This document shows positions 13,436 through 32,315 of a stretch of 64,000 nt of DNA, in pieces. The DNA comes from Mesorhizobium loti. Its GTDB lineage: Bacteria > Pseudomonadota > Alphaproteobacteria > Rhizobiales > Rhizobiaceae. The position numbers were made by a program, and so were the translations under genes. The stretch spans positions 1,054,001-1,118,000 of the forward strand of contig AP017605.1 of NCBI GenBank assembly GCA_002356515.1, in the 5' to 3' direction. The notes under the pieces were generated by a model, which worked only from the letters and a program-made list of their open reading frames with translations, was not told where the DNA came from and searched no databases. Each line of letters begins with the position of its first letter. The stretch's first letter is position 1.

Positions 13436-14194
13436 TCAGGCGAAAGCCCAGATGTCCTCGGCCTGGAAGCCGACCTGGTAGCCTGCTGTCTTCAGCTTGA
13501 CCACGACCTGGCCGATCTCGGTCGCCGGCAACGCACCGACTTCCACCTTGATCATGCCGGGGCGGTAGCGCTTGAGGTCGAGCTGTTCGAAGACGATCCA
13601 GTCGGCGCCTTCGCAATCGACAAGAAAGGCATCGATATGGCTGATGCCGTTGCGGTCGAGCAGCGCTTGCAGCGTTTCCGACGGCACTTCGATGTCCTTC
13701 AGATGCGGCGCGAATTTGTTGAAGTTGGCGTCGGCCTCGCCCCAGGCATTCTTGCCGGACATCAGATTGGTGTCGGTGACCGAGGAGCAGCCGATGAATT
13801 CGATCGGCAGCGTGCCGGCCTCGAGGGCCGCGGCATCGAACGTGTGGACGGTGATCGTGCCCTTGGTCCTGGTGACAGCCACCGGCTCGATGATGAAGCG
13901 GTCGGTGTCGGGATAGTTGGCGCGCAGCCGCTTCTGATTGTAGGGGATCGGCTCGACCAGCATGGCGCGGGCGCCGGCAATCCTGTGCAGCCACGGCGTC
14001 ACATCGTCGAACAGCGCACCGTCGCAGGCGCCGACATTGACCATCTGGAACGGCTGCCCCGACCCGCCGAAGCGCGCCTTCAGCGCCGCCTTGGCGAGGA
14101 ACTTCGTACCGCGCAGCGACGGCCCGCGATCGAGCACGCCAGCGGGAAGGCCGAGCGACAAGGCGATGCGCGCCAGGCTGGAGAGTGAACTCAT
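13436..14194 (-). CDS. FkbM-family SAM-dependent methyltransferase
   Basis: This 252-aa protein has the FkbM methyltransferase layout. MVNVGACDGALFDD (about 42-55) is the SAM-binding glycine motif, MLVEPIPYN (about 75-83) the acidic second strand, and FLVDCEGADWIVFEQL (about 185-200) the conserved late motif of the family. FkbM enzymes O-methylate sugars and lipids, so it may cap the sugar made by this cluster. Its ATG overlaps the stop of the upstream membrane protein as ATGA, so it is the last gene of the operon. The acceptor is not known. Confidence 0.82.
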   Translation of the reverse strand: MSSLSSLARIALSLGLPAGVLDRGPSLRGTKFLAKAALKARFGGSGQPFQMVNVGACDGALFDDVTPWLHRIAGARAMLVEPIPYNQKRLRANYPDTDRFIIEPVAVTRTKGTITVHTFDAAALEAGTLPIEFIGCSSVTDTNLMSGKNAWGEADANFNKFAPHLKDIEVPSETLQALLDRNGISHIDAFLVDCEGADWIVFEQLDLKRYRPGMIKVEVGALPATEIGQVVVKLKTAGYQVGFQAEDIWAFA

Positions 14195-15423
14195 GGCTTG
14201 TCTCCGGGAATGACGTGCAAGGCCGCGCGGTTTTGGCCACGAACCGAGGCCGCCCACAGCGCCATGAACGGCGTTGCCAGCAGCAGGAAGGGCGGGATCA
14301 AATGCGGGAAATAGATGCGCGTATCGTGGATCGGAAAGACCGTGAATTTGGCGAGCGCGCCGAGCACCAGCGCCGCGAACAGGATGCCGGCACGGCGGTC
14401 GAGGCGGAAGCCGGCGCGGCCGGCGGCGAACCAACCAGCCAATGCCAGCACCGAGACGCCGACCCAGCTGTTCAAATTGACCGCGCGCAGCAGCGAGGCC
14501 GCAAACGCCTTGAGATAGGCGGTGACCGAGAAGGCCGGCTCGAACCCATCCATATTGTAGTGCTGTTCGATGCTGGAGAACCACAGATGCGGCCACCAAC
14601 CGGGATGCTGAGCCCAGTGCGAAATGGCGAAATAGGCGACGAAGGACGCGGCAAAGCCGGCCAGCGCGCCCCATGCCTTTTGCCGGAAGGCAACCACCAG
14701 CACCGCGAAAATGGCAAGGAAAACAATATTGTCCGGCCGCACCATGAAGGCGAGGAAGAGCAGGATCGCCGTCGCCACCTCGCGGCCTCTGACATAGGCG
14801 TAGAGCCCGCCCAGCAGCAGCGCCGAGGTGAGTAGGTCAGGCGTCGCAGCCCGCGCCGCGTCGCCGAAATCAGCCATGATCAGCACCGCCCCGACCACCG
14901 GTGCCAAGGCCAGGGCCTTTTCGGCGCGCAGCCAGAGCAGCACAATCGTGCCGAACATGAGCACCGAAAACACCTGCACCAGCCGCATCGCCTCGACCGG
15001 CGACATCACCGCGCTCAGCGTCGACAGGATTTCGGCGTAGAGGAATTTTATCCGGTACATGCCGAGCAGCGAATGGAAGTCGGCGGCATTCTCCGCCATG
15101 TGGCTGCGGAAGCCGCCGCCATCGTCGGTCAGCGCCTTATAGTCGCCGGCCGACACGCCCGCCTTGACCGTGCTGTAGGCATAATCATGCAGCGCCTGCG
15201 CATCGGGATAGCTGCCTTCCTCGGATATTGCGAGATAGGGCAGCATGTCCCAATTGGCGTCTGGCATCACCCAGGCTGTGAACGCCGTCAGAAGGATGTA
15301 GAGCGCGAACGCCGCCGCGCCGATCGGTGCCGCCAGCCGCGCATAGGTCCCCTCGCCCCACGCCAGACCGGCCTCGGTGAGCCGGTCGAGCGGGTTTTTC
15401 GCAAGGGGAGACTTGGTCAGCAT
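14191..15423 (-). CDS. polytopic membrane protein, GT-C glycosyltransferase-like
   Basis: This 410-aa protein has about nine to ten hydrophobic segments. After the first one (about residues 34-52) comes an extracytoplasmic loop beginning MPDANWDMLPYLA, whose acidic residues sit where GT-C transferases carry their catalytic Asp/Glu. Such enzymes transfer sugars from polyprenyl-phosphate donors on the outer face of the membrane, which suits the neighbouring lipid-sugar synthesis and transporter genes. No specific family name was recognised, so the glycosyltransferase role is an inference from topology and context. It overlaps the FkbM gene by four bases. Confidence 0.6.
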   Translation of the reverse strand: MLTKSPLAKNPLDRLTEAGLAWGEGTYARLAAPIGAAAFALYILLTAFTAWVMPDANWDMLPYLAISEEGSYPDAQALHDYAYSTVKAGVSAGDYKALTDDGGGFRSHMAENAADFHSLLGMYRIKFLYAEILSTLSAVMSPVEAMRLVQVFSVLMFGTIVLLWLRAEKALALAPVVGAVLIMADFGDAARAATPDLLTSALLLGGLYAYVRGREVATAILLFLAFMVRPDNIVFLAIFAVLVVAFRQKAWGALAGFAASFVAYFAISHWAQHPGWWPHLWFSSIEQHYNMDGFEPAFSVTAYLKAFAASLLRAVNLNSWVGVSVLALAGWFAAGRAGFRLDRRAGILFAALVLGALAKFTVFPIHDTRIYFPHLIPPFLLLATPFMALWAASVRGQNRAALHVIPGDKP

Positions 15424-15448
15424 CTTTTTGTGCTCAGCGAACTTTCTT

Positions 15449-16921
15449 TTAGCGGACTTGGCTTTTGACGAAGTCCCTCACGATCGAAACGATGCCGCGT
15501 GACAGCAGGCTGTCGAAGGCATCGACGAAGCGGTCGACATGCTCGCGCTGGCAGATCAGCGGCGGCTCGAGTCGGATGACGTTGCGGTTGTATTCGGTGA
15601 AGGCGACGAGCACGTCGTAGTCGCGCAGCAAGAGCGCGCCGACAAAACCCGACAGCGAACCCTTCAGCTTGTCGTCGAGCACGCTGACGATGGGCCTGAG
15701 CACCATGGGCAAGGTCTGCGAGAAGTCGTGGAACTCCAGGCCGACCATGAAGCCCTTGCCGCGCACATCCTTGATGATCTTCGGGTATTTGTCCTTGAGC
15801 GCTTGAAGCCGCTGCAGCAAATAATCGCCGGTGACGGCGGCGTTGTCGATCAGCCCCTCGTCATAGAGCACGTTGAGGCCCTCGATCGCGGTGACGCAGG
15901 CCTCGCCCATGCCGCCGAAGGTCGCCATGGCATGGATCATCGCCGTCTTCGGCGTGCCATAAGCCTTCATGTAGACGTCGCGCTTGGCGATCATCGCACC
16001 GACCGCCGCCTTGCCGGCGCCGAGCGACTTGGCAAGTGCGGTCACATCAGGCACGACGCCGTAGTGCTCGAAGGCATAGAAACGGCCCGAGCGGCCATAG
16101 CCGCACTGCACTTCATCGGCCACCCACAGCACGCCATACTGGTCGCACAGCGCGCGCAGCTTCTGCCAATATTCGGCTGCTGCCTGGATGATGCCGCCAC
16201 CGCCCTGGATGGTTTCGAGCACGATGACACCAACCTCCGGGTCGCTGCGGAACAGGCGCTCCACCGCCTCGATGTCGCCGAAGGGAATGCGCACCGTATT
16301 GTCCGCCATCTTGAAGTCGGCGCGATAGAGCTGGCCGTCGGTGATCCCCAGCACGCCCTTCGTCTTGCCGTGGAAGGAATTCTCGGCGTAGACGATTTTC
16401 GGCCGCTTCGGTCCGGCCGCGCGCTCGGCGAGCTTCACCGCCGCTTCCATCGCTTCCGAGCCGGACGAGCCCAAAAACACCATGTCGAGATCGCCGGGCG
16501 AGCATTTGGCGATGTTGTGCGCCAGCGCCGCCGCATATTGCGACATGAAGGCGATGGCGATTTCCTGGCGCTTCTCCTCTTGAAATTTTCTGCGCGCTTC
16601 CAGGATGCGTGGGTGGTTGTGGCCGAAGGCCAGCGAGCCGAAGCCGCCGAAGAAATCGAGGATCTTGCGGCCGTTCTGGTCGATGTAGAACATGCCCTCG
16701 GCACCCTCGATCTTGATCTTGTGGAAGCCGAGCAGCTTCATGAAATGCAGTTGGCCGGGATTGAGATGCGCCTTGAACAGGTCGGTCATGCGGGCGACAT
16801 CCATCGCCTTGGCCTGCTCGACGCTGATCAAATCGGGCTTGGCGATGGTGGCGGGCGACAGCGCCGGCGCGCTTACCATGGTGCGCGCACTCGTCTGTTC
16901 TGGCTTGGCCATGACGGTCAT
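15449..16921 (-). CDS. class III PLP-dependent aminotransferase
   Basis: This 490-aa enzyme has the class III fold. GSSGSEAMEAAVKLA binds cofactor phosphate, FHGKTKG follows, DEVQCGYGRSGRFYAFEHYG carries the cofactor-contacting Asp, and ALAKSLGAGKAAVGA holds the PLP lysine. Class III members act on ornithine, omega-amino acids, diamines or, rarely, sugars. About 50 extra residues precede the catalytic domain and the C-terminal region is longer than usual. GGAG lies seven bases upstream of the ATG at 16921. It sits inside a polyprenyl-pentose cluster, so an amino-sugar or amine cap is possible, but the true substrate is unknown. Confidence 0.82.
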   Translation of the reverse strand: MTVMAKPEQTSARTMVSAPALSPATIAKPDLISVEQAKAMDVARMTDLFKAHLNPGQLHFMKLLGFHKIKIEGAEGMFYIDQNGRKILDFFGGFGSLAFGHNHPRILEARRKFQEEKRQEIAIAFMSQYAAALAHNIAKCSPGDLDMVFLGSSGSEAMEAAVKLAERAAGPKRPKIVYAENSFHGKTKGVLGITDGQLYRADFKMADNTVRIPFGDIEAVERLFRSDPEVGVIVLETIQGGGGIIQAAAEYWQKLRALCDQYGVLWVADEVQCGYGRSGRFYAFEHYGVVPDVTALAKSLGAGKAAVGAMIAKRDVYMKAYGTPKTAMIHAMATFGGMGEACVTAIEGLNVLYDEGLIDNAAVTGDYLLQRLQALKDKYPKIIKDVRGKGFMVGLEFHDFSQTLPMVLRPIVSVLDDKLKGSLSGFVGALLLRDYDVLVAFTEYNRNVIRLEPPLICQREHVDRFVDAFDSLLSRGIVSIVRDFVKSQVR

Positions 16922-16984
16922 TTCATTCTCCTGTCCGCGCTAACGACCAGCGTCTTGCGCCATAAACCTTGTTCGGCAGGCCCG

Positions 16985-17992
16985 CTATTCGGCAGGCACA
17001 TGTTTGGTGGCGACGGCGGGACCCGCCCTCTTGGCGCGGTACTCGCTGTAGGCGGCGATCAGCATGTCCTCGTCGCGATAGTGCGGCACCCAGCCGAGCT
17101 GGCGGTCGGCCTTGGACACGTCGAGCACGCATTCCTCGTCGGCGATCAGATACTGCTCCGGATCCATGATCGGCATGTTCATGAGATCGAGCAGGTCGAG
17201 CGTGCGCTTGACCGCCCAGCCGGGCGTCGGCAGCAGGATCGATTTCGAACCGGCATAGCGGATCAAATCGCCGAGCAATTTCTTCACCGGCGGCGGGTTC
17301 AAAGAGCCGAGATTATAGGCCTCGTTGGGCACGCCGGCCTTCCAGGCCGCGCGGGCAGCTTCCGCGCAATCGAACACGGAGATGAACTGATAGGGGTTTT
17401 TGCCTGAGCCGATCATCGGCACCGGCAGGTTCCAGTCGATCAGCTTGAACAGTTTTTCGAGGATGCCGAGCCGGCCGGGGCCGATGATCAGCCGCGGGCG
17501 AAACAGCGAGATCGACATGCCGCGCTTGCGCCATTCGACGGCGAGTTCCTCGGTCTTTTGCTTCGACCAGCCATATTCGCCAAGCGGCGCGACCGGATGC
17601 TCCTCGGTCATCGGCTGGGTCACCGTGTGGCCGTAGATCATGTCGGTCGTGTAGTGGACGAGTTTTCGCGCACCAGCCTTGTCCATGGCCTGCATGATGT
17701 GCTCGGTGCCGTGGAAATTGACCGGGAAGAAGAAGTCGTGCCGCTTGGCGCGCACCTGGATCGGCGAAAGCATCTTGGCCGACAGATTGTAAACCATGTC
17801 GTCGGCCTTGAGCCCGACATTGGCGACCGACGCCGGATCGGTGACGTCGCATTGGACGAACCGGACATTGCGGTAGTGCGCAAGGTCGCTCCTAGCGATG
17901 TCGGCGACGACAACCTCTTCACCATCGGCCACAAGCTTCGGGGCAAGGTGACGGCCGACGAAGCCGTCACCGCCGAAAATCACATGTCTCAT
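16985..17992 (-). CDS. NAD-dependent epimerase/dehydratase (extended SDR)
   Basis: This 335-aa protein begins with an unusual Rossmann motif, IFGGDGFVGRHLAPKL (GxxGxxG with Asp inserted), and has the catalytic pair in YGWSKQKTE. The sequence is typical of nucleotide-sugar epimerases or 3-beta-HSD-like extended SDRs. In the cluster it may be the reductase or epimerase acting on the keto intermediate produced by the DprE1-like oxidase, although classical DprE2 is a short SDR. The ATG overlaps the stop of the small transporter gene by four bases. Confidence 0.82.
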   Translation of the reverse strand: MRHVIFGGDGFVGRHLAPKLVADGEEVVVADIARSDLAHYRNVRFVQCDVTDPASVANVGLKADDMVYNLSAKMLSPIQVRAKRHDFFFPVNFHGTEHIMQAMDKAGARKLVHYTTDMIYGHTVTQPMTEEHPVAPLGEYGWSKQKTEELAVEWRKRGMSISLFRPRLIIGPGRLGILEKLFKLIDWNLPVPMIGSGKNPYQFISVFDCAEAARAAWKAGVPNEAYNLGSLNPPPVKKLLGDLIRYAGSKSILLPTPGWAVKRTLDLLDLMNMPIMDPEQYLIADEECVLDVSKADRQLGWVPHYRDEDMLIAAYSEYRAKRAGPAVATKHVPAE

Positions 17993-18423
17993 CGAACGGT
18001 CTCGCTTGCCTGGATCTTGTCGGGCGTGATGGAAGCGGTCTGGTCTTCATGCCCTCGCCCACTTTGCGCGATCAGCACGGTGCCGACGCAGATGAAGGCG
18101 ATGCCGGCGATGCGCCAGCCATTGAGGTCCTCGCGGAAGACGAAATAGGCGAAGATGGCGACGGCGACATAGGCGAGGCTGAGGAAGGGATAGGCGAAGG
18201 AAAGCTCGACCTTGGACAGCACATAGAGGTGCGAGGCCATGGAGATCACGAAGGTGCACAGGCCAAGGAACACCCAGGGGCTGAAGACGATCTGCAGCAG
18301 CTTGATCAGCGGATTGACGCCCTCGAACGAGATCGGCCCAAGCGACATCATGCCTTGCTTCAGCATCAGCTGCGCAGCGGCATTGGTCATGACCGTAAAG
18401 AGAATGAAGACGATATATTTCAT
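17989..18423 (-). CDS. small four-helix EamA/SMR-like transporter, possible lipid-sugar flippase
   Basis: This 144-aa protein has four predicted membrane helices (about 2-22, 45-65, 75-95 and 103-120) in the style of ArnE/ArnF and EmrE-like transporters. It includes the family's NAAAQLMLKQG in helix 1 and SFAYPFLSLAYV in helix 3. ArnEF-type proteins flip aminoarabinose-undecaprenyl phosphate. Between lipid-sugar synthesis genes and a GT-C-like protein, flipping of a polyprenyl-phosphoryl-pentose is a good guess. Its stop overlaps the SDR gene. About 120 non-coding bases precede it, so it may also have its own promoter. Confidence 0.7.
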   Translation of the reverse strand: MKYIVFILFTVMTNAAAQLMLKQGMMSLGPISFEGVNPLIKLLQIVFSPWVFLGLCTFVISMASHLYVLSKVELSFAYPFLSLAYVAVAIFAYFVFREDLNGWRIAGIAFICVGTVLIAQSGRGHEDQTASITPDKIQASETVR

Positions 18424-18546
18424 GCCAACTCACCACCCCGCATCATCTGCTACTACAAAGCTGAAAAGATTTCGTGAACTCACAAGACAATTTTGAGTAA
18501 ACCTTGCCATTAATCATTTGCTAACCATGATTCATTCCATTTTTAT

Positions 18547-19896
18547 CTATTCCGCTGCCTCGGCGCCGCGCCGCCGCAGGTCGATGCCGCAAGCCGTGCG
18601 CGCCCAGAAATCGGACATGAAGGCGGGGTCGCGCAGCGCTTCCAGCCTCGGCCAGTCCGCGAAGGACGCGGCGAAGGTAGCAGCGCCCATGCGCGCGTCC
18701 TTGTAGGGATTGACCGCTCCGCCGGCCGCGATGGTGATGCGGTCGAGCTCGTCAAGCAGGGTAAGCGTCGCCGCTCCTCTGTTGGGGAAATCCAGCGTCA
18801 GCGTGTAGCCCGGGCGCGGGAACGACAGCAGCGCCGGCGAGCGGATCGAGCCGAAGCGTTTCAGCACAGTGAGAAAGGAGCCCTGCCCGGCCCGCCGGGC
18901 AGCGGCAAGCAATTCGGGCACGACGGTGCGCGCAGCCTCTTCCGGCACCACACTCTGGTGCTGGAACAACCCTTTAGGGCCATAAAGCCGGTTCCAGTCG
19001 CGCACGCCATCGAGCGGGAAGAAAAAGGCCTGGTAGCCACTTTGGTGCGGCGCGGTCGCCCGGCCTTTCTTCCACCGGTAGGCGGCATTGAAGGCGGTCA
19101 GGAACGGCCGGTTGAGCACATTGAACGGCGGCTGGAACGGCACCGCCAGACTGCCGCCGGCACTCGAGGCCGCATGCGAGCCGTGCTCGGCGTGGTTGCC
19201 GGTAAACAGCAGCCCGCGCCCGCCGTTGCGGCCGCCGGCAAGCTGGTCGATCCAGGCGACCGCATATTCATTGGCCTGATCCGCCGCCTCGGCCAGATCG
19301 AAGAATTCACGGAGATCGCGAAACGCCGCCGTCTTCCCGACGATGTCGAGCGAAGGCACCCGCATCAGCCGGATCGAGGCCGAGAGGATCAGGCCGGTCA
19401 GGCCCATGCCGCCGATGGTCGCCGCAAACAGGCGCCGATTGTCGGCGGCCGAGCAGCGATAGGTCTTTCCATCGGAGCGCAGCAGCGTGAAGCTTTCGAC
19501 ATGGCAGCCGAACGTGCCGCGCCGGTGATGGTTCTTGCCGTGTACGTCATTGGCGATGGCGCCGCCCAGCGTGACGAATTGTGTGCCCGGAACCACCGCC
19601 GGGAAAAAGCCATAGGGTGCTGCGTGCGCGATGATATCGGACAGCAGCACACCGGCATCGGCTTCGAGCACGCCCGTCTCGGCGTTGAAGGAACGGATAT
19701 GGTTCAGGCTTCGCATGTCGACGACCGCGCCAGCCCGGTTCTGGCAGGAATCGCCATAGGAACGGCCATTGCCATAGGCCAGCAGCGATCCCTCCTTCGC
19801 CTCGCCGCCCTTCAGCAGCGCGATGGCATCGGCGGCGTGGATCGCACGCGGCGCCGGCGGTGTGGCAAGGCCAAAGCTGCGAAAATGTTCGGCCAT
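18547..19896 (-). CDS. DprE1-like FAD-dependent decaprenylphosphoryl-ribose oxidase homologue
   Basis: This 449-aa flavoenzyme of the vanillyl-alcohol-oxidase superfamily matches mycobacterial DprE1 in its landmarks. It has YGNGRSYGDSCQNR near 41-54, VPGTQFVTLGGAIANDVHGKNHH around 102-124, IGGMGLTGLIL, WNRLYGPKGL and NPYKDARM. DprE1 oxidises the ribose 2'-OH of decaprenylphosphoryl-ribose on the way to arabinose. The lysine matching DprE1 Lys418 is kept (Lys399). The cysteine targeted by benzothiazinones (Cys387) is Thr367 here. It starts two bases after the stop of the UbiA-HAD gene, so the two enzymes are made together. Confidence 0.82.
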   Translation of the reverse strand: MAEHFRSFGLATPPAPRAIHAADAIALLKGGEAKEGSLLAYGNGRSYGDSCQNRAGAVVDMRSLNHIRSFNAETGVLEADAGVLLSDIIAHAAPYGFFPAVVPGTQFVTLGGAIANDVHGKNHHRRGTFGCHVESFTLLRSDGKTYRCSAADNRRLFAATIGGMGLTGLILSASIRLMRVPSLDIVGKTAAFRDLREFFDLAEAADQANEYAVAWIDQLAGGRNGGRGLLFTGNHAEHGSHAASSAGGSLAVPFQPPFNVLNRPFLTAFNAAYRWKKGRATAPHQSGYQAFFFPLDGVRDWNRLYGPKGLFQHQSVVPEEAARTVVPELLAAARRAGQGSFLTVLKRFGSIRSPALLSFPRPGYTLTLDFPNRGAATLTLLDELDRITIAAGGAVNPYKDARMGAATFAASFADWPRLEALRDPAFMSDFWARTACGIDLRRRGAEAAE

Positions 19897-19898
19897 GC

Positions 19899-21332
19899 CT
19901 ACCAGCCCCCGATGACCAGCAGCACGGCGCCGATCAGCACCACAATCTGGCTGCGCCAGTCGCGGATGATGAAGACGACCGGATCGTCATGCATCTCGTC
20001 GCGGCGCGCCAGGATCCAGACACGCATGGTGAGGTAAAGCACGATCGGCGGCAGCGGCCAGATCAGCCACGGATGCGGATAGAGTTCGCGCACCGCGACA
20101 CTGTCCATGTAGAGCGCCAGCACCAGCGCCGAGGAAAACGCCGAGGCCATGCCGGCTTGGGCAACGATCTCCTGGTCCTCGGTACGATAGCCACGGCCGG
20201 CAATGCGTTCGCCGGGTGGAATGGCGGTGGTACGCAGTTCGACGAAGCGCTTCACCAGCGCCAGCGACAGGAAGAAGAAGATCGAAAAGGCGAGCAGCCA
20301 GAACGAGACGTCGACGCCGGTCGCGGCAGCACCCGCGATCACGCGGATCGAGTAGAGGCCGGCAAGCGTCAGCACATCGACCAGCAGCATGCGCTTGAAC
20401 GACAGCGAATAGGCCGTGGTGACGACCATGTAGCCGCCGAGCACACCGAGGAATTCGATTGGCAAAAACAGGCCGGCGCCGATGCCGATCGCGAGCAGCA
20501 CGACCATCGCACCGAGGCCGAAGGGGATCGACAGCGCGCCGCTGGCGAACGGCCTGTTGCGCTTGGTGATGTGCTTGCGGTCGAGCGCGAGGTCGAAGAA
20601 GTCGTTGAGGATATAGATCGCCGACGCCACCGCGCTGAACGAGATGAACGCCAGCAGGCATTGCCAGACCATGTTGGTGTTGAAGTACTCGTGCGACAGC
20701 ACCATGGGCACGGCGATCAGCGAATTCTTCAGCCACTGATGCACGCGCAGCATCTTGACGATGGTCCGCAAGGTCGGCTTCGGCGCCGGCATGGTTTCGG
20801 CGCCATGCGCCGCCTGCCAGCGCGCGGCATGGCGGTCGGGCGCGACGACGATTGCATTGCGCGCGGCGTCGAAGACCTGGAGATCATGGCGGCTGTTGCC
20901 GGCATAGTCGAAACCGCCATCGCCATAGGCCGATATCAGCGAGGCGCGCTTCTTGCCGGAGGTGAGATTATCGAGACCATCGGTGGCCAGCACCCGGTCG
21001 AAGATGCCGAGATGGCCGGCTATGGCCTCGGCGAATTTGCGCGGCGTGCCGGTCGCCAGCACGATCTTGCGGCCTTCGGCATGTTCAGTACGAAGCCGGT
21101 CGAGCAGCGGCGCGCGATAGGGCAGCGTCGCCGGGTCTATGTCGATGCGCTGCGCGATCGCCTGCTTCAGCCGCGCCGGCCCGCCGGCCGCCCAGAACGG
21201 CACCAGGAAGAGATAGAGCGGGTTCTTCTTGAAGAGGAGGAACAGGCCTTCCCACAAAAGGTCGGTCGCGATCAGCGTGCCGTCGAGGTCGACCGCAAGC
21301 GGTATTGCGTTCCTGTCCGACCGCGCATCCAT
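19899..21332 (-). CDS. HAD phosphatase-UbiA prenyltransferase fusion, phosphoribosyl-polyprenyl-phosphate synthase-like
   Basis: This 477-aa protein joins two activities. The N-terminal HAD domain (about residues 10-175) has the catalytic DLDGTL motif at Asp15/Asp17 and ATGTP as motif II. The C-terminal UbiA domain (about 190-475) has around eight helices and NDFFDLALD at 243-251, the Mg-pyrophosphate-binding motif. Rv3806c-type UbiA enzymes attach phosphoribose from PRPP to decaprenyl phosphate, and a phosphatase then removes the 5-phosphate. The fusion could do both steps. It is the first gene of the minus-strand cluster, followed immediately by the DprE1-like gene. Specific substrates are inferred. 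Confidence 0.82.
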   Translation of the reverse strand: MDARSDRNAIPLAVDLDGTLIATDLLWEGLFLLFKKNPLYLFLVPFWAAGGPARLKQAIAQRIDIDPATLPYRAPLLDRLRTEHAEGRKIVLATGTPRKFAEAIAGHLGIFDRVLATDGLDNLTSGKKRASLISAYGDGGFDYAGNSRHDLQVFDAARNAIVVAPDRHAARWQAAHGAETMPAPKPTLRTIVKMLRVHQWLKNSLIAVPMVLSHEYFNTNMVWQCLLAFISFSAVASAIYILNDFFDLALDRKHITKRNRPFASGALSIPFGLGAMVVLLAIGIGAGLFLPIEFLGVLGGYMVVTTAYSLSFKRMLLVDVLTLAGLYSIRVIAGAAATGVDVSFWLLAFSIFFFLSLALVKRFVELRTTAIPPGERIAGRGYRTEDQEIVAQAGMASAFSSALVLALYMDSVAVRELYPHPWLIWPLPPIVLYLTMRVWILARRDEMHDDPVVFIIRDWRSQIVVLIGAVLLVIGGW

Positions 21333-21558: not shown

Positions 21559-21822
21559 TTACTTGATGCGGGCGACGCCGCCCGAAATTTCGACGGTTTC
21601 CGAGCCGGTCAGGGCTTCAAGATCACCGTTCGGCAAGGTGACGAAGCAGCCGTTCTGGCAGAACTCGACGGTTTCACCGCCGGCCAGCGCAAGGTCGGTC
21701 TTGCTGCCGCCCTCGGTCACGACCAGCGTGCGGGTCTCGGCGTCCTTGTTGACCGCGCTGGCGGCATGAACCGAGCCGCTCACGGCGAGCAAGGCGACGG
21801 CAGCGACGAGAGACTTCCACAT
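21559..21822 (-). CDS. small secreted protein of unknown function
   Basis: This 87-aa protein has a clear signal peptide (MWKSLVAAVALLAVSGSVHAAS). The short mature domain contains a two-cysteine loop, EFCQNGCFV, that could form a disulfide or bind a metal, within a beta-rich sequence. I do not recognise a named family. The start at 21822 is chosen because the signal peptide begins there; 21 upstream codons are also open but not protein-like. It has its own terminator and a 158-base upstream region, so it is probably monocistronic. Confidence 0.72.
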   Translation of the reverse strand: MWKSLVAAVALLAVSGSVHAASAVNKDAETRTLVVTEGGSKTDLALAGGETVEFCQNGCFVTLPNGDLEALTGSETVEISGGVARIK

Positions 21823-21980
21823 TTTGCAATATCGGTGTTCCCACCGCCTCTGTTGCATTTCGCAAGGCATTTTCGCCCTTTGCATGGGAGCTTATATGAG
21901 ATGGAAGCTGAACCGCAACTGAATGCCGCATTCATGCCGCAATTGGTTTTGGATGGACATGAGGCCGGCAGATTCCCGAT

Positions 21981-24500
21981 CTAGTCCGGATCTGGTTTCT
22001 TGGATCTGCGGGACTTGGCCAGCTTTTTCGCCTCGGCCGCGGCGTCCGCCTTGGCCTGCTCCTGTTCGGCAAAGTCGGCCTCGATCTTGTCGTCGTCGGT
22101 TGGCCAGGCCTTCGCATGTTTGGTCTCGATGACGGCGCGCGGCGTCGAGGGGATCTCGATATGCTGGTCGCTGAATCTTTCCAGCACGGCGAAGCGGACA
22201 TCGTTCTGCACGATGTTGCCGTTCATCACATCGGCCAGGAACACACGGATCTCGAATTCGAGCGCCGCGGGACCGAAATTGGAAAACAGCACGAAGGGTT
22301 CGGGGTTCTTCAGCACCATCGGGTGGCCGCGTGCGATCTCCAGCAGGATGGCGTGAACCTGCTTGACGTCGCTGCCATAGGCGACGCCGACTTTGATGTC
22401 GAGGCGGCCGAGCTTGTTGCGGTGCGTCCAGTTGCCGACGGCATTGTTGATCAGGTTCGAATTGGGCAGGATCACCGACTGACGCTGGAAAGTCTCGATC
22501 TCGGTGGCGCGCACACTGATCTTCTTGACCGTGCCGCTGACGTCACCGGCGACGATCCAGTCGCCGACCTTGAAGGGCCGCTCGGCCAGAAGGATCAGGC
22601 CGGAGACGAAATTCGACACCACATTCTGCAGGCCGAAACCGATACCGAGGGAAAGCGCGCCGGCGACCAGCGCCAGGCTGGAGAGGTCGATGCCCGCCGC
22701 TGATATGCCGACAAGCCCCGCCAGCGCCACGCCGGCATAGCCGACCGCCAGCCGGATCGAGTTGCGCACGCCGGTATCGACCTTGCCGCGCGCCATGACG
22801 GAGCCGTCGAGCCAGCCCTGGAACCAGCGCGTCAGGAAATAGCCGATGATGAAGACGATGATGCCCGAAAGGATGCCGGTAACCGAAATCGTCACCGAGC
22901 CGATATTGATTCCCGTCGCGAGCTTGTAGGCCCAGGCCTGGATGTCGCCGGGCTGGAATCCCCACATCAGCAGGATCAGCGGCAGGAAAACCAGCACGAT
23001 CAACAGGTTGATGGCAATGCTGACAACGAGGCCGAGCTGGTCGAGCGCTGTGTCTTCGTAACTCGAATTGGTCGACAGCCAGCGCCCGACGGATGTGTTG
23101 GCGAAAGCCCCCTCTTCGCCGATCGCGCGCGCCGACAGGAAGCCGATATAGGCGGTGATCAGCGCCGTGCCGGTGACCACGACCTGCAGCGAGACGAACA
23201 GCGCAAGACCGATATAGCCAAGCAAGGCGGCTATGATGGTGAACAGGCCAAGCGCCAGCGCCAGGTAGCGCAGCCATGCGGGCCACGGCCGCCAGCTTCC
23301 ATCTCGCGCCTTGAAGGGCCGCAGCATCGCCATCAGGATCAGGATGATGCCGACGACAATGGTGGCGACGAAACTGCGCGCGATGGTCAGCGACAGCGGC
23401 GATCCCATCTTGTCGTTGACGACAGACAGGAAAGTATTGACGCTGATGACGACCGCCATGGCGGTGGACAGGCGCACCAGCCAGCGCGCCGGCCCGGTTT
23501 CGACCGGGATGAGGCGCCAGTTCGGCAGCCGCGGCTCAAGCGCCGCATTGGTCAGGCGGTTGACGCAGAATATCACCCCGATGGCGGTCGCCAGCGCATT
23601 GAGGAACAGGCCAATGTCACCACGCAGCACATTGTAATAATTGAAAAAGAAGATGGTCGAGCCGAGGAACGAACCGACCGCCAGCGTTGGCAGCAAGGTA
23701 GACCAGAAGGCCACCGACAAGCGGCTGAGATAAGACGGATCTTCGTTGGAGGGGTCGGCCTCGAATACGCGCCCGAACAGGCGCCTGCCGCCGACCAGCA
23801 GCACCAGCGCCAGCCCGAGCGCCACGAAGGTTGCTGCTAGGATGGCCTGGAACTTGAACTTGAAAGCGAAGCTCAGCCAGGACGACACCGCCTTGTAGAA
23901 GTTGGCGTATTCCTCCTGGGCGTCGGAGAAGACCTGCGGGCTCAGCGCATCGGACAGCACGTAGCGCTTGGTCAAAAGATTGCGGAACAGCGCGCTGCGC
24001 ATGTTGCCGATCTTGTCGATCAATCCGTTGATGCGAATCGACAGGTTCTGCGCGGCGGCGACGACCGCGTTGATCTCGGCCTTTTCCGACGCCAGTGCCT
24101 GGCGTTCGCCGGTCACGATGTCGGGCTCCTGCGGCTGGCCTGCAGCCGGCGGTGGACCGAGCACCTCGATGCGATTGTTGATGTCGGTGAGCCGCGAACG
24201 GAACGCCAGCGCACTGGTCAGCGCCGCCCGCGACAGATCCTCCAGCTGCAGACGGATGTCCACGAGCGAGGCATCATCCTCACTGTCCTGCTGGATTTTC
24301 TTCTCGAGATCGTCGGTCTTGGCCGTCAGGCCCTGGATGACTTTCTGCTGATCGGTGATCAAGCCGGCGGAGCCCTGGCCAAGCGCCTGCGCCATCGCCT
24401 CGAACGAAGGCGGCGCCGAAATAACCAGCGCGAGGAGCAGGATGAGGCGGAGCAATCGAAAAAGCATGATTTGTTGACGACTCACCGGCGGCAAAGACAT
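21981..24500 (-). CDS. mechanosensitive ion channel protein with DUF3772 domain
   Basis: This 839-aa membrane protein starts with a hydrophobic leader and a periplasmic DUF3772 region with coiled-coil character (about residues 40-190). Several transmembrane helices follow, then the MscS domain: GFGLQNVVSNFVSGLILLAERPFKVGDWI lies within about 610-640, shown here only as its family-defining pore-helix and beta-domain junction. The C terminus is highly charged (Lys/Ala/Glu-rich). Such large MscS-like channels release solutes on osmotic downshock. The start is 24500, with AGG eight bases upstream; an internal ATG at 24467 has no ribosome binding site. Confidence 0.85.
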   Translation of the reverse strand: MSLPPVSRQQIMLFRLLRLILLLALVISAPPSFEAMAQALGQGSAGLITDQQKVIQGLTAKTDDLEKKIQQDSEDDASLVDIRLQLEDLSRAALTSALAFRSRLTDINNRIEVLGPPPAAGQPQEPDIVTGERQALASEKAEINAVVAAAQNLSIRINGLIDKIGNMRSALFRNLLTKRYVLSDALSPQVFSDAQEEYANFYKAVSSWLSFAFKFKFQAILAATFVALGLALVLLVGGRRLFGRVFEADPSNEDPSYLSRLSVAFWSTLLPTLAVGSFLGSTIFFFNYYNVLRGDIGLFLNALATAIGVIFCVNRLTNAALEPRLPNWRLIPVETGPARWLVRLSTAMAVVISVNTFLSVVNDKMGSPLSLTIARSFVATIVVGIILILMAMLRPFKARDGSWRPWPAWLRYLALALGLFTIIAALLGYIGLALFVSLQVVVTGTALITAYIGFLSARAIGEEGAFANTSVGRWLSTNSSYEDTALDQLGLVVSIAINLLIVLVFLPLILLMWGFQPGDIQAWAYKLATGINIGSVTISVTGILSGIIVFIIGYFLTRWFQGWLDGSVMARGKVDTGVRNSIRLAVGYAGVALAGLVGISAAGIDLSSLALVAGALSLGIGFGLQNVVSNFVSGLILLAERPFKVGDWIVAGDVSGTVKKISVRATEIETFQRQSVILPNSNLINNAVGNWTHRNKLGRLDIKVGVAYGSDVKQVHAILLEIARGHPMVLKNPEPFVLFSNFGPAALEFEIRVFLADVMNGNIVQNDVRFAVLERFSDQHIEIPSTPRAVIETKHAKAWPTDDDKIEADFAEQEQAKADAAAEAKKLAKSRRSKKPDPD

Positions 24501-24663
24501 TCAAAAAGCCTGTCCTTGATAAAGACGGCCATATCATGGGGCAAGCCGTCGCATCCCGTCGCGGACCTAAGCGTCGGCCAGTCGAAAGGCCATGGCGCAA
24601 TATTGGCTTTGCGGGTGCGGCCTGCTCTATAGTCTGCCGCATCGCCCGAACCGGATGACAATG

Positions 24664-25923
24664 ATGGCAGAGTACTCGGCCTTTTCGCTGCTCGCGAACG
24701 CGCTCAAGGGAAACAAGGATTGGAAGCCGGCATGGCGCAAGCCCGACCCGAAGGCTTCCTATGACGTCATCATCATCGGTGGCGGCGGCCACGGGCTGGC
24801 GACAGCCTACTATCTCGCCAAGGAACACGGCATCACCAATGTCGCGGTGCTGGAAAAGGGCTGGCTCGGCTCCGGCAATGTCGGCCGCAACACCACGGCG
24901 GTGCGCTCGAACTACCTGCTGCCTGCCAACACCCGCTTCTACGAACATTCGATGAAGCTGTGGGAGGGCCTGTCGCACGAACTCAATTACAACGTCATGT
25001 TCTCGCAGCGCGGCTGCCTGAACCTGGCGCACACGCCGGCCCAGTTCGACGACTATGCAAGGCGCGGCAACGCCATGCGCCATCTCGGCGTCGATGCCGA
25101 ACTGATGACGCCGGCGCAGATCAAGCGCCTGATCCCGGCGCTCGACATCTCCAGCGATGCACGCTTTCCGGTGGTCGGCGGCCTGATGCAGCGGCGCGCC
25201 GGCACCGCCCGCCATGATGCAGTGGCCTGGGGCTACGCGCGCGGCGCCGACCGTCGCGGCGTCGACATCATCGAGAATTGCGAGGTCACCGGCTTCCTGC
25301 GCGACGGCGACCGCGTCACCGGCGTCACCACATCGCGCGGCGATATCCGCGCCAGGAAAGTGGCGGTCGCAGTGGCCGGCAGCACCGGCCGCGTCATGCA
25401 ACTCGCCGGCGTCGAGACGATGCCGATCGAGAGCCACGTGCTGCAGGCCTTCGTGACGGAATCGCTGAAGCCCTTCATCGACACGGTCGTGACCTTCGGC
25501 ATGGGCCACTTCTATATGTCGCAGTCCGACAAGGGCGGCCTTGTCTATGGCGGCGACATCGACGGCTACAACAGCTACGCCCAGCGCGGCAATTTGCCCA
25601 TTGTCGACGAGGTGATGAGCGAGATGCTGGCGCTGTTTCCGGGCCTTGCGCGTGTACGCATGCTGCGCTCCTGGGGCGGCGTCTGCGACATGTCGATGGA
25701 CGGCTCGCCGATCATCACCACCGGCCCCTTGCCCGGCATGTATCTCAATTGCGGCTGGTGCTATGGCGGCTTCAAGGCGACGCCGGCCTCCGGCTGGACC
25801 TTTGCCTGGACCATCGCCAAGGATGAGCCGCACGACTTCAACGCGCCGTTCACCCTCGACCGCTTCCACCGCGGCCTCGTCATCGACGACAAGGGCCAGG
25901 GCGCGAATCCCAGGCTGCACTAG
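24664..25923 (+). CDS. soxB: sarcosine oxidase subunit beta
   Basis: This 419-aa subunit of heterotetrameric sarcosine oxidase has a Rossmann FAD motif, DVIIIGGGGHGLATAYYL (about 34-51). It also has the RAGTARHDAVAWG segment whose His184 matches the covalent FMN attachment site of SoxB. The complex oxidises sarcosine to glycine in the cytoplasm, passing the methyl carbon to tetrahydrofolate and electrons to oxygen. The start is uncertain by a few codons because ATGs at 24655, 24661 and 24664 are all in frame; 24664 matches the usual MAEYSAF N terminus. It is the first gene of soxBDAG. Confidence 0.93.
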   Translation: MAEYSAFSLLANALKGNKDWKPAWRKPDPKASYDVIIIGGGGHGLATAYYLAKEHGITNVAVLEKGWLGSGNVGRNTTAVRSNYLLPANTRFYEHSMKLWEGLSHELNYNVMFSQRGCLNLAHTPAQFDDYARRGNAMRHLGVDAELMTPAQIKRLIPALDISSDARFPVVGGLMQRRAGTARHDAVAWGYARGADRRGVDIIENCEVTGFLRDGDRVTGVTTSRGDIRARKVAVAVAGSTGRVMQLAGVETMPIESHVLQAFVTESLKPFIDTVVTFGMGHFYMSQSDKGGLVYGGDIDGYNSYAQRGNLPIVDEVMSEMLALFPGLARVRMLRSWGGVCDMSMDGSPIITTGPLPGMYLNCGWCYGGFKATPASGWTFAWTIAKDEPHDFNAPFTLDRFHRGLVIDDKGQGANPRLH

Positions 25924-25932
25924 GAATATTCG

Positions 25933-26229
25933 ATGCTCATCACTTGCCCCTATTGCGGCCCGCGCGACGTCATCGAGTTCACCTATCAGGGTGACGGCAA
26001 CCGCGAACGTCCCGATCCCGCTTCGCAGAATTTCGAGGCGTGGAACGCCTATGTCTATGACCGGCTGAACCCGGCCGGCGACCACAATGAGATCTGGCAG
26101 CATTCCGGCGGTTGCCGCACGCATCTGCGCGTCGTGCGCAACACGCTGACGCATGAGATTTCGAGCGTCGCCTTTGTGCGCGGCGATCATACCTCGGCCG
26201 CGCGCCGCAAGGCGGAGGACAAGGCATGA
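25933..26229 (+). CDS. soxD: sarcosine oxidase subunit delta
   Basis: This 98-aa subunit has the zinc-ribbon start MLITCPYCGPRD with Cys5 and Cys8, and later HSGGCRTH, which supplies the remaining ligands seen in SoxD. It is a structural zinc-binding subunit of the cytoplasmic sarcosine oxidase complex. It starts nine bases after soxB and overlaps soxA by four bases, so the genes are translationally coupled. Confidence 0.93.
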   Translation: MLITCPYCGPRDVIEFTYQGDGNRERPDPASQNFEAWNAYVYDRLNPAGDHNEIWQHSGGCRTHLRVVRNTLTHEISSVAFVRGDHTSAARRKAEDKA

Positions 26230-29200
26230 GCCCGCGCCGCACCGATACTGGCGGCCGCATCGACCGGCTGAAGACCATCCGCTTCACCTTCGACGGCGTC
26301 GCCTATACCGGCCATGCCGGCGACACGCTGGCCTCCGCACTGCTGGCCAAGGGCGTCACGCTTTTCGGGCGCTCGTTCAAATACCACCGCCCGCGCGGCC
26401 TGCTGACCGCGGGCGTGGAGGAGCCCAATGCGCTGGTGACGGTGCTGAAGGGCGAGGTGCGCGAGCCCAACATTGCGGCGACCATGGTCGAGATCCATGA
26501 CGGGCTGGTCGCGATCAGCCAGAACCGCTTCCCGTCGCTGGCCTGGGACATCAACGCCGTCAACCAGCTTGGCGGCAAGATCCTGTCGGCCGGCTTCTAC
26601 TACAAGACCTTCATGGGGCCGGTTATCGGTCCGCTGAAGGGCACGCGTTTCTGGATGTTCTGCGAGCATTTTATCCGCCGCGCAGCCGGCCTCGGCAGCG
26701 CCGGATCGGCGAAAGACACGGCCCGCTACGAACGCATGAACGCATTTTGCGACGTGCTGGTGGTGGGCTCCGGCCCCGCCGGTCTGATGGCCGCCAAGGC
26801 GGCCGCCGATCAGGGCGCCCGCGTCATGCTGGCCGATCTCGAACCGCGTTTCGGCGGCTCGACCAACTGGTCCGGTGAAACCATCGATGGCGCACCGGCC
26901 GCCGACTGGACCCGCCGCACCGTCACCCAGCTTGAAGGCCGCGACAATGTCCGGCTTTTGCCACGCACCACGGTGTGGGGCTATTACGACAACAACACGC
27001 TTGCCGCGCTCGAGCGGGTCAGCGACCACAAAGAACAGCCCGCCAAGGGCGAGCCGCGCCATCGCTACTGGGCAATCCGCGCCAAATCCGTGGTTCTGGC
27101 CACCGGCGCCTTTGAGCGGCCGCTGGTTTTCCCCGGCAATGACAGGCCGGGCGTGATGCTGGCGCATGCCGCCGAGCGCTACGCCAACGAGTTCGGCGTG
27201 CTGCCGGGCGAGCGGATTGCGCTGTTCACCAACAATGACAGCGCCTATCGCGCGGCCGTCGCCTTGAAGAAGGCGGGTGCGGCGATCGTCGCCATCGCCG
27301 ACGTCCGCTCCGAGGTTTCAGCCGAGATGCGCAAGCTGGCGACGGAAGCCGAGGCCGAGATCCTTGCCGGCCACGCTGTCGTCGCCACCGAGGGCGGCAA
27401 GGCGCTGTCCGGCATCAAGGTGCAGCGTTTCGACATGGTCACCGGGGCGCTCACCGGCGATGAACGAAGCATCCATGCCGACTGCCTGTTGATATCGGGC
27501 GGCTGGTCGCCGACCATCCATCTGGCCAGCCAGGCCGGCGCCAAAGCGGAATGGAATGCCGCACGGCAGGCTTTCCTGCCGCCGAAGCCGACGCAGCACT
27601 GGCCAACACAACAATGGATTGGTGCAGGCGCCTTCACCGGCAGTTTTTCTACCGCCGAGGCGATCGCCGAAGGCCGCGCCGCCGGCCTGGCAGCGGCCGG
27701 TGGAACGAGCACCCCGGCGGCATTGCCGACGGTCGACGCTCTACCCGGTGACCCCGATCCGGCGCCGGTCTTCGAGATCAGGGCCAAGGGCAAGAGCTTT
27801 GTCGATTTCCAGCATGACGTGACGGCTGAGGATGTCCGCCTGGCGCATCGCGAGGGCTTTGTCTCGGTCGAGCATCTGAAGCGCTACACCACGCTCGGCA
27901 TGGCGACCGACCAAGGCAAGAGCTCCAATGTTCCCGGCCTTGCCATCATGGCCGAGGCGCTGGGCAAGCCGATCCCGGAAGTCGGCACGACGCGCTTCCG
28001 GCCGCCCTTCGCGCCGGTATCGATCGGTTCGCTGGCGGCCGAGCGCTTCGGCGACCTGAAGCCGGAACGGCTGACGCCGATGCATGACTGGCATCTCGCC
28101 AATGGCGCGACCATGTATTCCGCCGGCCTCTGGTACCGGCCGATGATCTACGGGCTGTCAGGCGAAACGATCGAGCAGGCCTATGTGCGCGAAGCCAAGG
28201 CGACGCGCGAAAGCGCAGGCATTGTCGATGTCTCGACGCTGGGCAAGATCGCCGTGCAAGGCCCCGACGCAGCGGCCTTCCTCGACCGCGTCTACACCAA
28301 CATGTTTTCGACGCTCGCCGTCGGCAAGGCGCGTTACGGGCTGATGCTGCGCGAGGACGGCTTCGCCTTCGACGACGGCACCACCTGGCGGCTCGGCGAA
28401 CAGGATTTCCTGATGACCACCACCACCGCCAATGCCGGCAAGGTGATGCAGCATCTGGAATATTTCCTCGACGTCATCTGGCCGGAGTTGAAAGTTCACG
28501 TCACTTCGGTGACCGACGAATGGGCGGGTGCCGCGATCGGCGGGCCAAAGGCCAGGCAGATCCTCGCCGCCTGCGTCACCGGCACCGCGGTCGACAATGC
28601 GACCTTGCCCTTCATGGGCATCGTGCGTGGCGAGATCGCGGGTGTTCCGGTGATGATCTGCCGGCTGTCCTTCTCCGGTGAAATGGCCTTCGAGGTCTAT
28701 TCCGGCGCCGGCCATGGCACCCATGTCTGGGAAGCCTTGATCGAAGCCGGCAAGCCGTTCGGACTGGTCACCTACGGGCTCGAGGCGCTCGGCACGATGC
28801 GCATCGAAAAAGGCCATGTCACCGGCGCCGAGATCGACGGCCGCACCACGGCGCGCGACCTGCATCTCGACTGGATGCTGTCGAAGAAGAAGCCGTTCAT
28901 CGGCTCGGCCATGATGGACCGCGAAGGCCTGATCGCATCCGACCGCCTGGAACTGGTCGGCCTGATCGCGCTCGACAACCGGCCGCTCAATGGCGGCGCG
29001 CATATTGTCGAGGCGTTGGACGAAGCCAATCCGCACGGCTCGATCGGTCACATCACCGCCTGCTGCTATTCGCCGGCGCTCGGCAAGCACATCGCACTGG
29101 CACTGGTCGAGGGCGGCAAGGCCAGGCACGGCACCCGTGCCCATGTCTCCGATCCCTTGCGCAATAGGTTCGGACCGGTCGAGATCGTCTCCAACCATTT

Positions 29201-29234
29201 CTACGATCCGGAAGGGACCCGCATGCATGGTTGA
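26226..29234 (+). CDS. soxA: sarcosine oxidase subunit alpha
   Basis: This 1002-aa subunit is full length. It starts with a Fer2_4-like domain without cluster cysteines (about 15-100), then an NAD-binding pyridine-nucleotide-disulfide-type domain with VLVVGSGPAGLMAAKAA (about 178-194). A zinc/FAD interface region follows, then a C-terminal GcvT folate domain (about 615-1000). It channels the methylene group from sarcosine oxidation onto tetrahydrofolate. It overlaps soxD by four bases and soxG by eight, consistent with a single operon and fixed stoichiometry. Confidence 0.94.
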   Translation: MSPRRTDTGGRIDRLKTIRFTFDGVAYTGHAGDTLASALLAKGVTLFGRSFKYHRPRGLLTAGVEEPNALVTVLKGEVREPNIAATMVEIHDGLVAISQNRFPSLAWDINAVNQLGGKILSAGFYYKTFMGPVIGPLKGTRFWMFCEHFIRRAAGLGSAGSAKDTARYERMNAFCDVLVVGSGPAGLMAAKAAADQGARVMLADLEPRFGGSTNWSGETIDGAPAADWTRRTVTQLEGRDNVRLLPRTTVWGYYDNNTLAALERVSDHKEQPAKGEPRHRYWAIRAKSVVLATGAFERPLVFPGNDRPGVMLAHAAERYANEFGVLPGERIALFTNNDSAYRAAVALKKAGAAIVAIADVRSEVSAEMRKLATEAEAEILAGHAVVATEGGKALSGIKVQRFDMVTGALTGDERSIHADCLLISGGWSPTIHLASQAGAKAEWNAARQAFLPPKPTQHWPTQQWIGAGAFTGSFSTAEAIAEGRAAGLAAAGGTSTPAALPTVDALPGDPDPAPVFEIRAKGKSFVDFQHDVTAEDVRLAHREGFVSVEHLKRYTTLGMATDQGKSSNVPGLAIMAEALGKPIPEVGTTRFRPPFAPVSIGSLAAERFGDLKPERLTPMHDWHLANGATMYSAGLWYRPMIYGLSGETIEQAYVREAKATRESAGIVDVSTLGKIAVQGPDAAAFLDRVYTNMFSTLAVGKARYGLMLREDGFAFDDGTTWRLGEQDFLMTTTTANAGKVMQHLEYFLDVIWPELKVHVTSVTDEWAGAAIGGPKARQILAACVTGTAVDNATLPFMGIVRGEIAGVPVMICRLSFSGEMAFEVYSGAGHGTHVWEALIEAGKPFGLVTYGLEALGTMRIEKGHVTGAEIDGRTTARDLHLDWMLSKKKPFIGSAMMDREGLIASDRLELVGLIALDNRPLNGGAHIVEALDEANPHGSIGHITACCYSPALGKHIALALVEGGKARHGTRAHVSDPLRNRFGPVEIVSNHFYDPEGTRMHG

Positions 29235-31429: not shown

Positions 31430-31439
31430 TGCATGTCGC

Positions 31440-32314: not shown

Positions 32315-32315
32315 A

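Follow-up and report, generated by a model that had tools for sequence, protein, structure and literature searches.

The window, that is, the whole 64,000-nucleotide stretch of Mesorhizobium loti DNA analysed here (C1:1054001-1118000 of an 8.45 Mb genome in 4 contigs), carries at 13436..21332 seven minus-strand genes that include a DprE1-like oxidase and a class III aminotransferase, referred to below as AT3. The open reading frame (ORF) list and Pfam and NCBIfam scans find in each gene the domain that a first-pass annotation had ascribed to it, and so bear out its seven genes and their named families, with only the start of the FkbM gene moved. The genes are as follows.

19899..21332, minus strand: HAD-UbiA fusion, predicted polyprenyl-phosphate 5-phosphoribosyltransferase with a HAD phosphatase (Pfam UbiA 78.1 bits, HAD 39.6 bits)
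18547..19896, minus strand: DprE1-like flavin adenine dinucleotide (FAD) oxidase with an altered T/T/N/Y pocket (NF053785 326 bits, cut-off 500)
17989..18423, minus strand: four-helix protein of the small multidrug resistance (SMR)/EamA kind, ArnF-like, presumed to flip the lipid-linked sugar (EamA 32.1 bits)
16985..17992, minus strand: extended short-chain dehydrogenase/reductase (SDR) of the Epimerase family, here SDRx, presumed to act on the lipid-linked sugar as an epimerase or reductase (Epimerase 121 bits)
15449..16921, minus strand: class III pyridoxal phosphate (PLP) aminotransferase, AT3, which in place of DprE2 would aminate the keto product of DprE1 (Aminotran_3 281 bits)
14191..15423, minus strand: membrane protein resembling glycosyltransferases of the C fold (GT-C), presumed periplasmic pentosyl transferase (GT87 22.8 bits, cut-off 25)
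13436..14194, minus strand: FkbM-family methyltransferase, 252 aa, accessory (Methyltransf_21 54 bits, scored on an over-long ORF)

The HAD-UbiA and DprE1 genes are 2 bp apart, 123 bp separate DprE1 from the SMR gene, the SMR and SDR genes overlap by 4 bp, and the GT-C stop codon overlaps the FkbM ATG at 14191-14194. Judged from the sequence, this ATG at 14194 is the likeliest FkbM start, the 412-aa ORF being over-long. Predicted promoters (2, against 1.6 in shuffled sequence) and terminators (8, against 7.8) occur at about the frequency seen in shuffles.

The UbiA domain scores 141 bits on the decaprenyl-phosphate phosphoribosyltransferase model NF008977 (cut-off 234), as against 25 bits on the quinone UbiA model, while the whole protein scores 639 bits, above cut-off, on the fusion family NF006088 and 85.7 bits against the solved structure PDB 8j8j; it carries DLDGT at residue 15 and NDFFDLALD at residue 243. 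These models and the structure match identify a polyprenyl phosphoribose synthase with its own phosphatase domain. The oxidase reaches 326 bits on the DprE1 model, below the curated cut-off, versus 42 bits on sugar-lactone oxidases, and matches DprE1 in the PDB with 228 bits, as expected of the oxidase of a DprE1/DprE2 pathway. A quinone or heme UbiA identity is ruled out by the profile scores, and a general vanillyl-alcohol oxidase (VAO) identity by the DprE1 model and PDB scores. The comparison that the first-pass annotation had named as able to refute it, in which the UbiA domain would group with quinone or heme types and the oxidase with other VAO enzymes, thus came out in its favor. With a UbiA domain of the phosphoribosyltransferase type and a DprE1-like oxidase, the cluster likely yields a lipid-linked pentose, as had been proposed.

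The closest solved structures to AT3 are 4ppm (an 861-aa 'Aminotransferase', which we take to be PigE; 246 bits) and putrescine aminotransferase (221 bits), and its best NCBIfam model is PigE, with 342 bits (cut-off 850). Asp269 and Lys298, presumably the PLP aspartate and the Schiff-base lysine, are invariant in 36 aligned rows drawn from 86 AT3 loci and the window, as expected of a class III PLP aminotransferase. Most known sugar aminotransferases belong to a different class, and class III enzymes often use terminal aldehydes. HpnO, the class III aminotransferase of hopanoid synthesis, was a further candidate considered. In a protein search with 2051 matches, the 120 listed were all near copies of AT3 (at least 83% identity), with no distant context among them. 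For SDRx, which carries GGDGFVG at residue 7 and YGWSK at 140, the best NCBIfam models lie far below their cut-offs. The small membrane protein is nearest to ArnF (NF002816, 51.2 bits, cut-off 99) and then to ArnE (36 bits, below cut-off), and its EamA score is above cut-off. The GT-C-like protein has no sequence match in the PDB; we assign its fold tentatively, on the basis of the weak GT87 score and of residues invariant in 18 aligned rows (the window and 17 of 31 loci), namely the Asp of PDANWDM, an R-x-D pair, GWW.H, and, close to the C terminus, one Lys and one Arg. The flippase and GT-C roles given in the first-pass annotation are reasonable, with the ArnF and GT87 scores below cut-off.

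Conservation among relatives divides these seven genes into a core and a periphery. The five closest DprE1 loci are all from Mesorhizobium (90-92% identity). At least 585 DprE1 loci were confirmed; in the 80 that match best, a set biased towards close kin, AT3 is present in 70, SDRx in 69 of these 70, and the five genes for HAD-UbiA, DprE1, SMR, SDRx and AT3 together in 69 of the 80. By strict ORF order, 59 of the 69 share one order and strand; of the other ten, L018, L024, L028, L053 and L054 are in order by table, and five Bosea loci have SMR-SDRx-AT3 on the opposite strand. This five-gene core is far beyond chance. FkbM, counted in its correct frame, occurs in only 14 of 140 loci, all Mesorhizobium, one match spanning 70 residues only. 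Of 141 long loci (L004-L083 and L141-L201), 31 have the 410-aa GT-C family and 33 a different membrane protein of about 570 aa. Since the GT-C and FkbM genes vary in this way, the unit is the five-gene core and not the seven-gene set. The aminotransferase is no loose tailoring gene, being the conserved alternative to DprE2. The proteins of about 570 aa (L034:14361-16079 and relatives) are encoded convergently with AT3 in many species. No Pfam match was found in the two members scanned, and they may form an undescribed GT-C family; this second GT-C-like protein had no match in the host genome at E 1e-5, in a search run without a positive control.

The first-pass annotation had drawn an analogy to the arabinose route of mycobacteria and of the rhizobial noe genes, which requires DprE2. 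With a Mesorhizobium DprE2 (L080) as query, the best match in the host genome had an E-value of 6.3e-12 (120 of 120 candidates scored); the two best candidates score 65.8 and 91.8 bits on a DprE2 profile whose seeds exceed 310. This profile was built from seeds found here, and is thus independent only for the G047 and IRBG74 genes discussed below, L227 and generic matches. As no DprE2 was found in the cluster or the genome, an arabinose donor made by DprE1 and DprE2 is ruled out, the arabinose reading is not likely, and the analogy fails at the DprE2 step.

Across relatives, AT3 and DprE2 appear as alternatives. Within the stretches examined, AT3 occurs in 70 of the 80 nearest loci and DprE2 in 6, never the two together, and 4 loci show neither gene; two of the latter are explained by L033 ending inside AT3 and by Hoeflea L046 having AT3, SDRx and SMR elsewhere in its genome. 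Among 397 genomes of the order, DprE1 is found in 60 and AT3 (E 1e-120) in 21, all 21 of which also have DprE1. These AT3-positive genomes span 11 of the 141 genera of the order, and named AT3 loci include those of Mesorhizobium, Aminobacter, Phyllobacterium, Ensifer, Bosea and several Brucella species. The core is not universal in the genus: among nine listed genomes of Mesorhizobium, AT3 and DprE1 occur together in five, and the other four lack both. An even sample of 398 genomes from the phylum has DprE1 in 53 (E 1e-50) and AT3 in 7 (E 1e-130). DprE2 at E 1e-25 or better is present in 38 of 39 genomes of the order with DprE1 and no AT3, versus 0 of 21 with AT3 (best 9.9e-19; nominal Fisher p 2.8e-15). 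In the largest genomes this E-value census scored a subset of the first-look candidates, for the host genome 98 of 116. By coordinates, DprE2 lies beside DprE1 in 37 of the 38, the 38th being G047; the sole genome with DprE1 and neither partner is G579.

Sixty stretches fetched from the phylum and order searches (L142-L201) repeat this pattern: L142-L157 have AT3 and no DprE2, and L159-L201 have DprE2 next to DprE1 and no AT3 in 43 of 43 cases (L159 is on the same contig as L073). For six DprE1-positive genomes of the phylum sample outside the fetched set (G055, G123, G171, G274, G035 and G111), status was taken from the genome searches. All 49 DprE2 genes assessed are on the strand of DprE1, 40 of them with a gap below 250 bp; the remaining 9 overlap DprE1 by 372-2208 bp, which we take to reflect over-long starts, longest ORFs having been used. 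Chance adjacency of AT3 is ruled out by the co-occurrence counts, the Fisher test and the conservation of the core.

The association also survives when the locus is broken up. The AT3-SDRx-SMR and UbiA-DprE1 blocks lie apart in Hoeflea (outside the 397) and in G635, where AT3 and DprE1 are on different contigs of one genome, and the AT3-DprE1 link is thus not just that of one locus. Going by their record titles, a single metagenome-assembled genome holds both L018, with DprE1 and AT3, and L080, with DprE1 and DprE2; each oxidase therefore keeps its own partner.

In a DprE1 tree of 141 rows, made by a quick method with approximate likelihood ratio (SH-aLRT) support (L001-L003 and the short loci L084-L140 were excluded from tree and tallies), 84 AT3-linked rows form one clade with 4 rows without local AT3 (SH-aLRT 97). 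Two further AT3-linked oxidases, L075 from Methyloprofundus and L145 from G540, of the host's order, group instead with the DprE2-linked L072 and L079 (SH-aLRT 98). On the AT3 tree L145 is sister to the main-clade locus L148 (95), while the placement of L075 is not settled. Because L145 is placed differently on the two trees, AT3 seems, as far as these phylogenies can tell, to have been joined afresh to a DprE2-type DprE1. In the stretches examined, which are short contigs, neither L075 nor L145 shows SDRx or SMR; nearby are a membrane protein with PF03706 (lysylphosphatidylglycerol synthase TM region) and a PMT_2 protein. SDRx is also absent from the stretch in the AT3-positive L149 and L152, whose further flanks are negative too.

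G047 (L158, L208; 2.6 Mb, of the order) is an informative exception. Its DprE1 is inside the AT3-type clade, and it has SDRx, SMR and a longer GT-C-like gene; no AT3 was found, its two aminotransferase matches being only 33 and 35% identical to AT3, and it seems to have lost this gene. On another contig G047 has a DprE2-family SDR scoring 381.7 bits on the DprE2 profile, where generic SDRs score 92.1-133.4 (five, from AT3-positive genomes other than the host's) and a second G047 SDR 124.5. On NF005489 the G047 gene scores 340 bits versus 336 for the gene in the place of NoeO in the noe operon, and on the DprE2 NCBIfam model the two score 197 and 192 bits, both under the cut-off of 250.

The pocket of the oxidase differs along with its partner in most loci. 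At the positions equivalent to M. tuberculosis 364, 387, 415 and 417, the residues are T, T, N and Y in 84 of 84 main-clade AT3-linked rows and in the clade's 4 other rows, whereas DprE2-linked rows mostly have x, A, Y and A (exactly AAYA in 30 of 50). The equivalents of H132, K134, Q334, Q336, K367 and K418, which we take to be the active-site residues of the M. tuberculosis enzyme, are unchanged in 84 of 84 rows. All four variable positions are listed as contacts of inhibitors with the M. tuberculosis enzyme, mostly from docking, in the available portion of PMC9525719, where the row for a co-crystallised ligand names 387, 415 and 417 but not 364. Going by these substitutions, main-clade DprE1 probably accommodates another sugar, or a sugar in another pose. 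The presence of SDRx finds no support as the cause of the pocket change: L149 and L152 show no SDRx yet keep TTNY. The AT3 layout with a TTNY pocket is also found on a Neorhizobium plasmid. In Sinorhizobium meliloti Ak57, a DprE1 with the pocket TTNC (L225:7896-9221) lies beside YceI and tpiA genes, and similar neighbors follow full clusters in L059 and L063, as judged by eye. The 17-kb Ak57 stretch contained no UbiA, SMR, SDRx or AT3, the rest of that genome being unsearched, and this DprE1 looks like a relic.

In mycobacteria, according to the available part of PMC9993113, the product of DprE1 is a 2-keto sugar lipid, described as an unstable intermediate, which DprE2 reduces to arabinose. 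On the basis of the gene content and conservation described above, we hold it somewhat probable that the M. loti cluster makes and uses a polyprenyl-phosphate-linked amino-pentofuranose, with AT3 in place of DprE2; the product would then probably be an amino sugar so far undescribed on cell surfaces. The proposed route would run from phosphoribosyl pyrophosphate (PRPP) through polyprenyl-phosphate-ribose and a keto sugar, by transamination, to a polyprenyl-phosphate-aminopentose, which would then be flipped and transferred. By homology, the HAD-UbiA fusion would transfer phosphoribose from PRPP and dephosphorylate the product, and the DprE1-like flavoenzyme would oxidize a ring hydroxyl, most likely that at C2, to a ketone. 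Because AT3 seems to replace DprE2, we infer that it acts on this keto lipid, transaminating it by PLP chemistry where DprE2 would reduce it, to give a 2-amino-2-deoxy-pentofuranosyl phospholipid. In most of the species seen, SDRx may set the stereochemistry at another carbon, like the Citrobacter O2 epimerase; it is apparently dispensable, since some AT3 loci lack it. The ArnF-like SMR protein would flip the lipid, the lineage-specific GT-C-like enzyme would pass the sugar, in the periplasm, to an acceptor of the envelope, and FkbM may O-methylate the sugar in Mesorhizobium. The lipid-linked ketone as substrate, the carbon aminated, the SDRx step, the flipping, the acceptor and any effect of charge are thus all predicted steps.

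Several observations weigh against this reading. The DprE1 score is under the curated NCBIfam cut-off, and the DprE1 loci L076, L082 and G579 show neither AT3 nor DprE2; the G579 locus (L219) has neither gene nearby, and no DprE2 was found in that genome at E 1e-15 among 71 of 101 candidates scored. The AT3-linked L075 and L145 have the AAYA pocket and the DprE2-linked L072 has TANS; therefore pocket and partner are not strictly tied. The evidence for re-pairing is affected by the odd composition for which L075 was flagged and by the very distant outgroup of the AT3 tree. The Fisher p overstates independence, because the DprE1 tree shows the main clade as one event only and related genomes are not independent. 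The habit of class III enzymes of using terminal aldehydes could mean amination at C5 rather than C2, the pocket changes of the main clade could mean that a different carbon is oxidized, and SDRx, conserved like AT3 in most loci and retained in G047 without AT3, could itself be the keto-reductase.

The last point leads to an alternative that we consider unlikely, in which the cluster makes an ordinary neutral pentose donor, arabinose or xylose, with SDRx standing in for DprE2 or acting like the Citrobacter epimerase, and with AT3 making an unrelated amine for the same glycan. The near-constant presence of SDRx beside AT3 in the first set of loci and its persistence in G047 fit this, as does the SDR epimerase that determines the xylose side chain of Citrobacter O2 in the available text of PMC11127046. 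Yet the keto sugar would be left unreduced in L075, L145, L149 and L152 unless SDRx is elsewhere, it is AT3 and not SDRx that is paired with the DprE2-type DprE1 of L075 and L145, and the SDRx-keeping G047 also holds a DprE2-family gene. Amination of the lipid-linked sugar at C5 or C3, with DprE1 or SDRx oxidizing another hydroxyl, is likewise improbable in our estimation. It could account for the change of four pocket positions across the whole main clade, positions that the excerpted lists of PMC9525719 place in contact with inhibitors. The nearest characterized relatives of AT3 act on terminal aldehydes or amines, which also suits it, but the presumed active-site residues are unchanged in all 84 rows, and L075 and L145 combine AT3 with a DprE2-type pocket. 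That AT3 and SDRx are mere conserved neighbors of a system that adds ribose is very hard to credit: although a HAD-UbiA protein, a flippase and a GT-C suffice for this in Citrobacter O1, as far as the available part of PMC11127046 goes, DprE1 is retained here when ribose addition needs none, and co-occurrence with AT3 is strict even with split loci and re-pairing.

The aminopentose reading places the cluster among several known systems. The three-component system of Citrobacter youngae O1/O2 shares with it, in the parts of PMC11127046 available, HAD and UbiA in one protein and a PRPP-derived lipid-linked pentose; its SDR epimerase (O2), flippase and periplasmic GT-C have presumed counterparts in M. 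loti. The M. loti cluster differs in adding DprE1 and an aminotransferase and in its candidate flippase, an SMR/EamA protein with sub-cut-off likeness to ArnF, where the founding system uses a multidrug and toxic compound extrusion (MATE) protein; the prototype GT-C is GT136, whereas ours is placed by a GT87 score just below cut-off. A second HAD-UbiA, 39% identical to the first, is encoded in the same genome at L141:8442-11222 (C2:256000-275500), on a 295-kb contig. It adjoins an extended SDR, with no DprE1 in that stretch, in a layout resembling the Citrobacter xylofuranose system, and the host genome may make two different lipid-linked pentoses.

With the mycobacterial decaprenyl-phosphoryl-arabinose pathway (Rv3806c, DprE1, DprE2, Rv3789) the cluster shares the UbiA phosphoribosyltransferase, DprE1 and a candidate SMR-type flippase, but it has a fused HAD instead of the Rv3807c phosphatase, an aminotransferase, a changed DprE1 pocket and no DprE2 that we could find. 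The noeCNHOP genes for arabinosylation of Nod factor in Azorhizobium and Rhizobium IRBG74 (PMC5080398, in the available portion) likewise share rhizobial UbiA and DprE1. On the IRBG74 plasmid (BN877 tags) we find UbiA, GtrA, DprE1, DprE2 (373 bits on the profile) and a further gene in the place of NoeP, with the AAYA pocket and a NodA gene within the same 13 kb, and a Rhizobium leguminosarum plasmid has the same UbiA-GtrA-DprE1-DprE2 layout. Because noe has DprE2 (NoeO), both analogies, with noe and with mycobacteria, break down precisely at the step for which the M. loti cluster has AT3. A role in Nod-factor arabinosylation is unsupported: noe combines DprE2 and AAYA a few kb from nodA, whereas this locus has AT3 and TTNY. 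Pfam scans of 20 ORFs of the window found no nod-type domain, the other ORFs and the genome being unscanned. Deletion of noeP in IRBG74 abolishes Nod factor arabinosylation, and noeN has been suggested to be a phosphatase, according to the excerpted text of PMC5080398. In the IRBG74 operon the gene between UbiA and DprE1 (L224:5495-5917), which is noeN by gene order only, encodes a GtrA-family membrane protein (147.6 bits, cut-off 50), which suggests that a flippase fits better than a phosphatase.

The Arn pathway, which makes undecaprenyl-phosphate-4-amino-4-deoxy-L-arabinose and uses ArnE/F and ArnT, has in common with our prediction a polyprenyl-phosphate aminopentose, an ArnF-like protein and a GT-C-like enzyme. 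However, the Arn route aminates a UDP-sugar first, whereas the sugar predicted here would be a furanose, built from PRPP on the lipid and aminated after attachment. Among ten proteins of the cluster region, Pfam scans found none of the domains expected of ArnB or ArnC, and no genome-wide Arn search was made. We give even chances to the broader proposal that this is a second, PRPP-based route to a lipid-linked aminopentose, independent of the UDP-sugar Arn route and scattered through the order, in which AT3 displaced DprE2 and the sugar adds positive charge to an envelope glycan or lipid. Our searches of the open-access literature, with subscription papers outside their scope, found no description of an aminotransferase in this pathway role, and searches related to aminopentoses found nothing relevant among open-access papers. 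A Brucella ovis oxidoreductase has DprE1 as its closest solved structure in the part of PMC9045290 available.

Upstream of the cluster are a 108-aa protein without a Pfam match (21559-21885) and an MscS channel (21981-24500), which keep this position in Mesorhizobium and many relatives; this is likely synteny only. Beyond them, at 24592-39906, the window has genes of the sarcosine oxidase and dimethylglycine dehydrogenase type (DAO, SO_alpha_A3, GCV_T) and a major facilitator superfamily (MFS) transporter, perhaps a region for catabolism of methylated glycines.

Accounts of DprE1, a major drug target in tuberculosis, normally treat its 2-keto product solely as a stage on the way to arabinose. 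If transaminases have indeed replaced DprE2, the keto sugar lipid would instead be a branch point to different lipid-linked pentoses, and annotators could tell arabinose from aminopentose clusters by the gene that accompanies DprE1 and, within the main lineage, also by its four pocket residues. Some root-nodule and soil bacteria would then carry an undescribed amino sugar on their surface.

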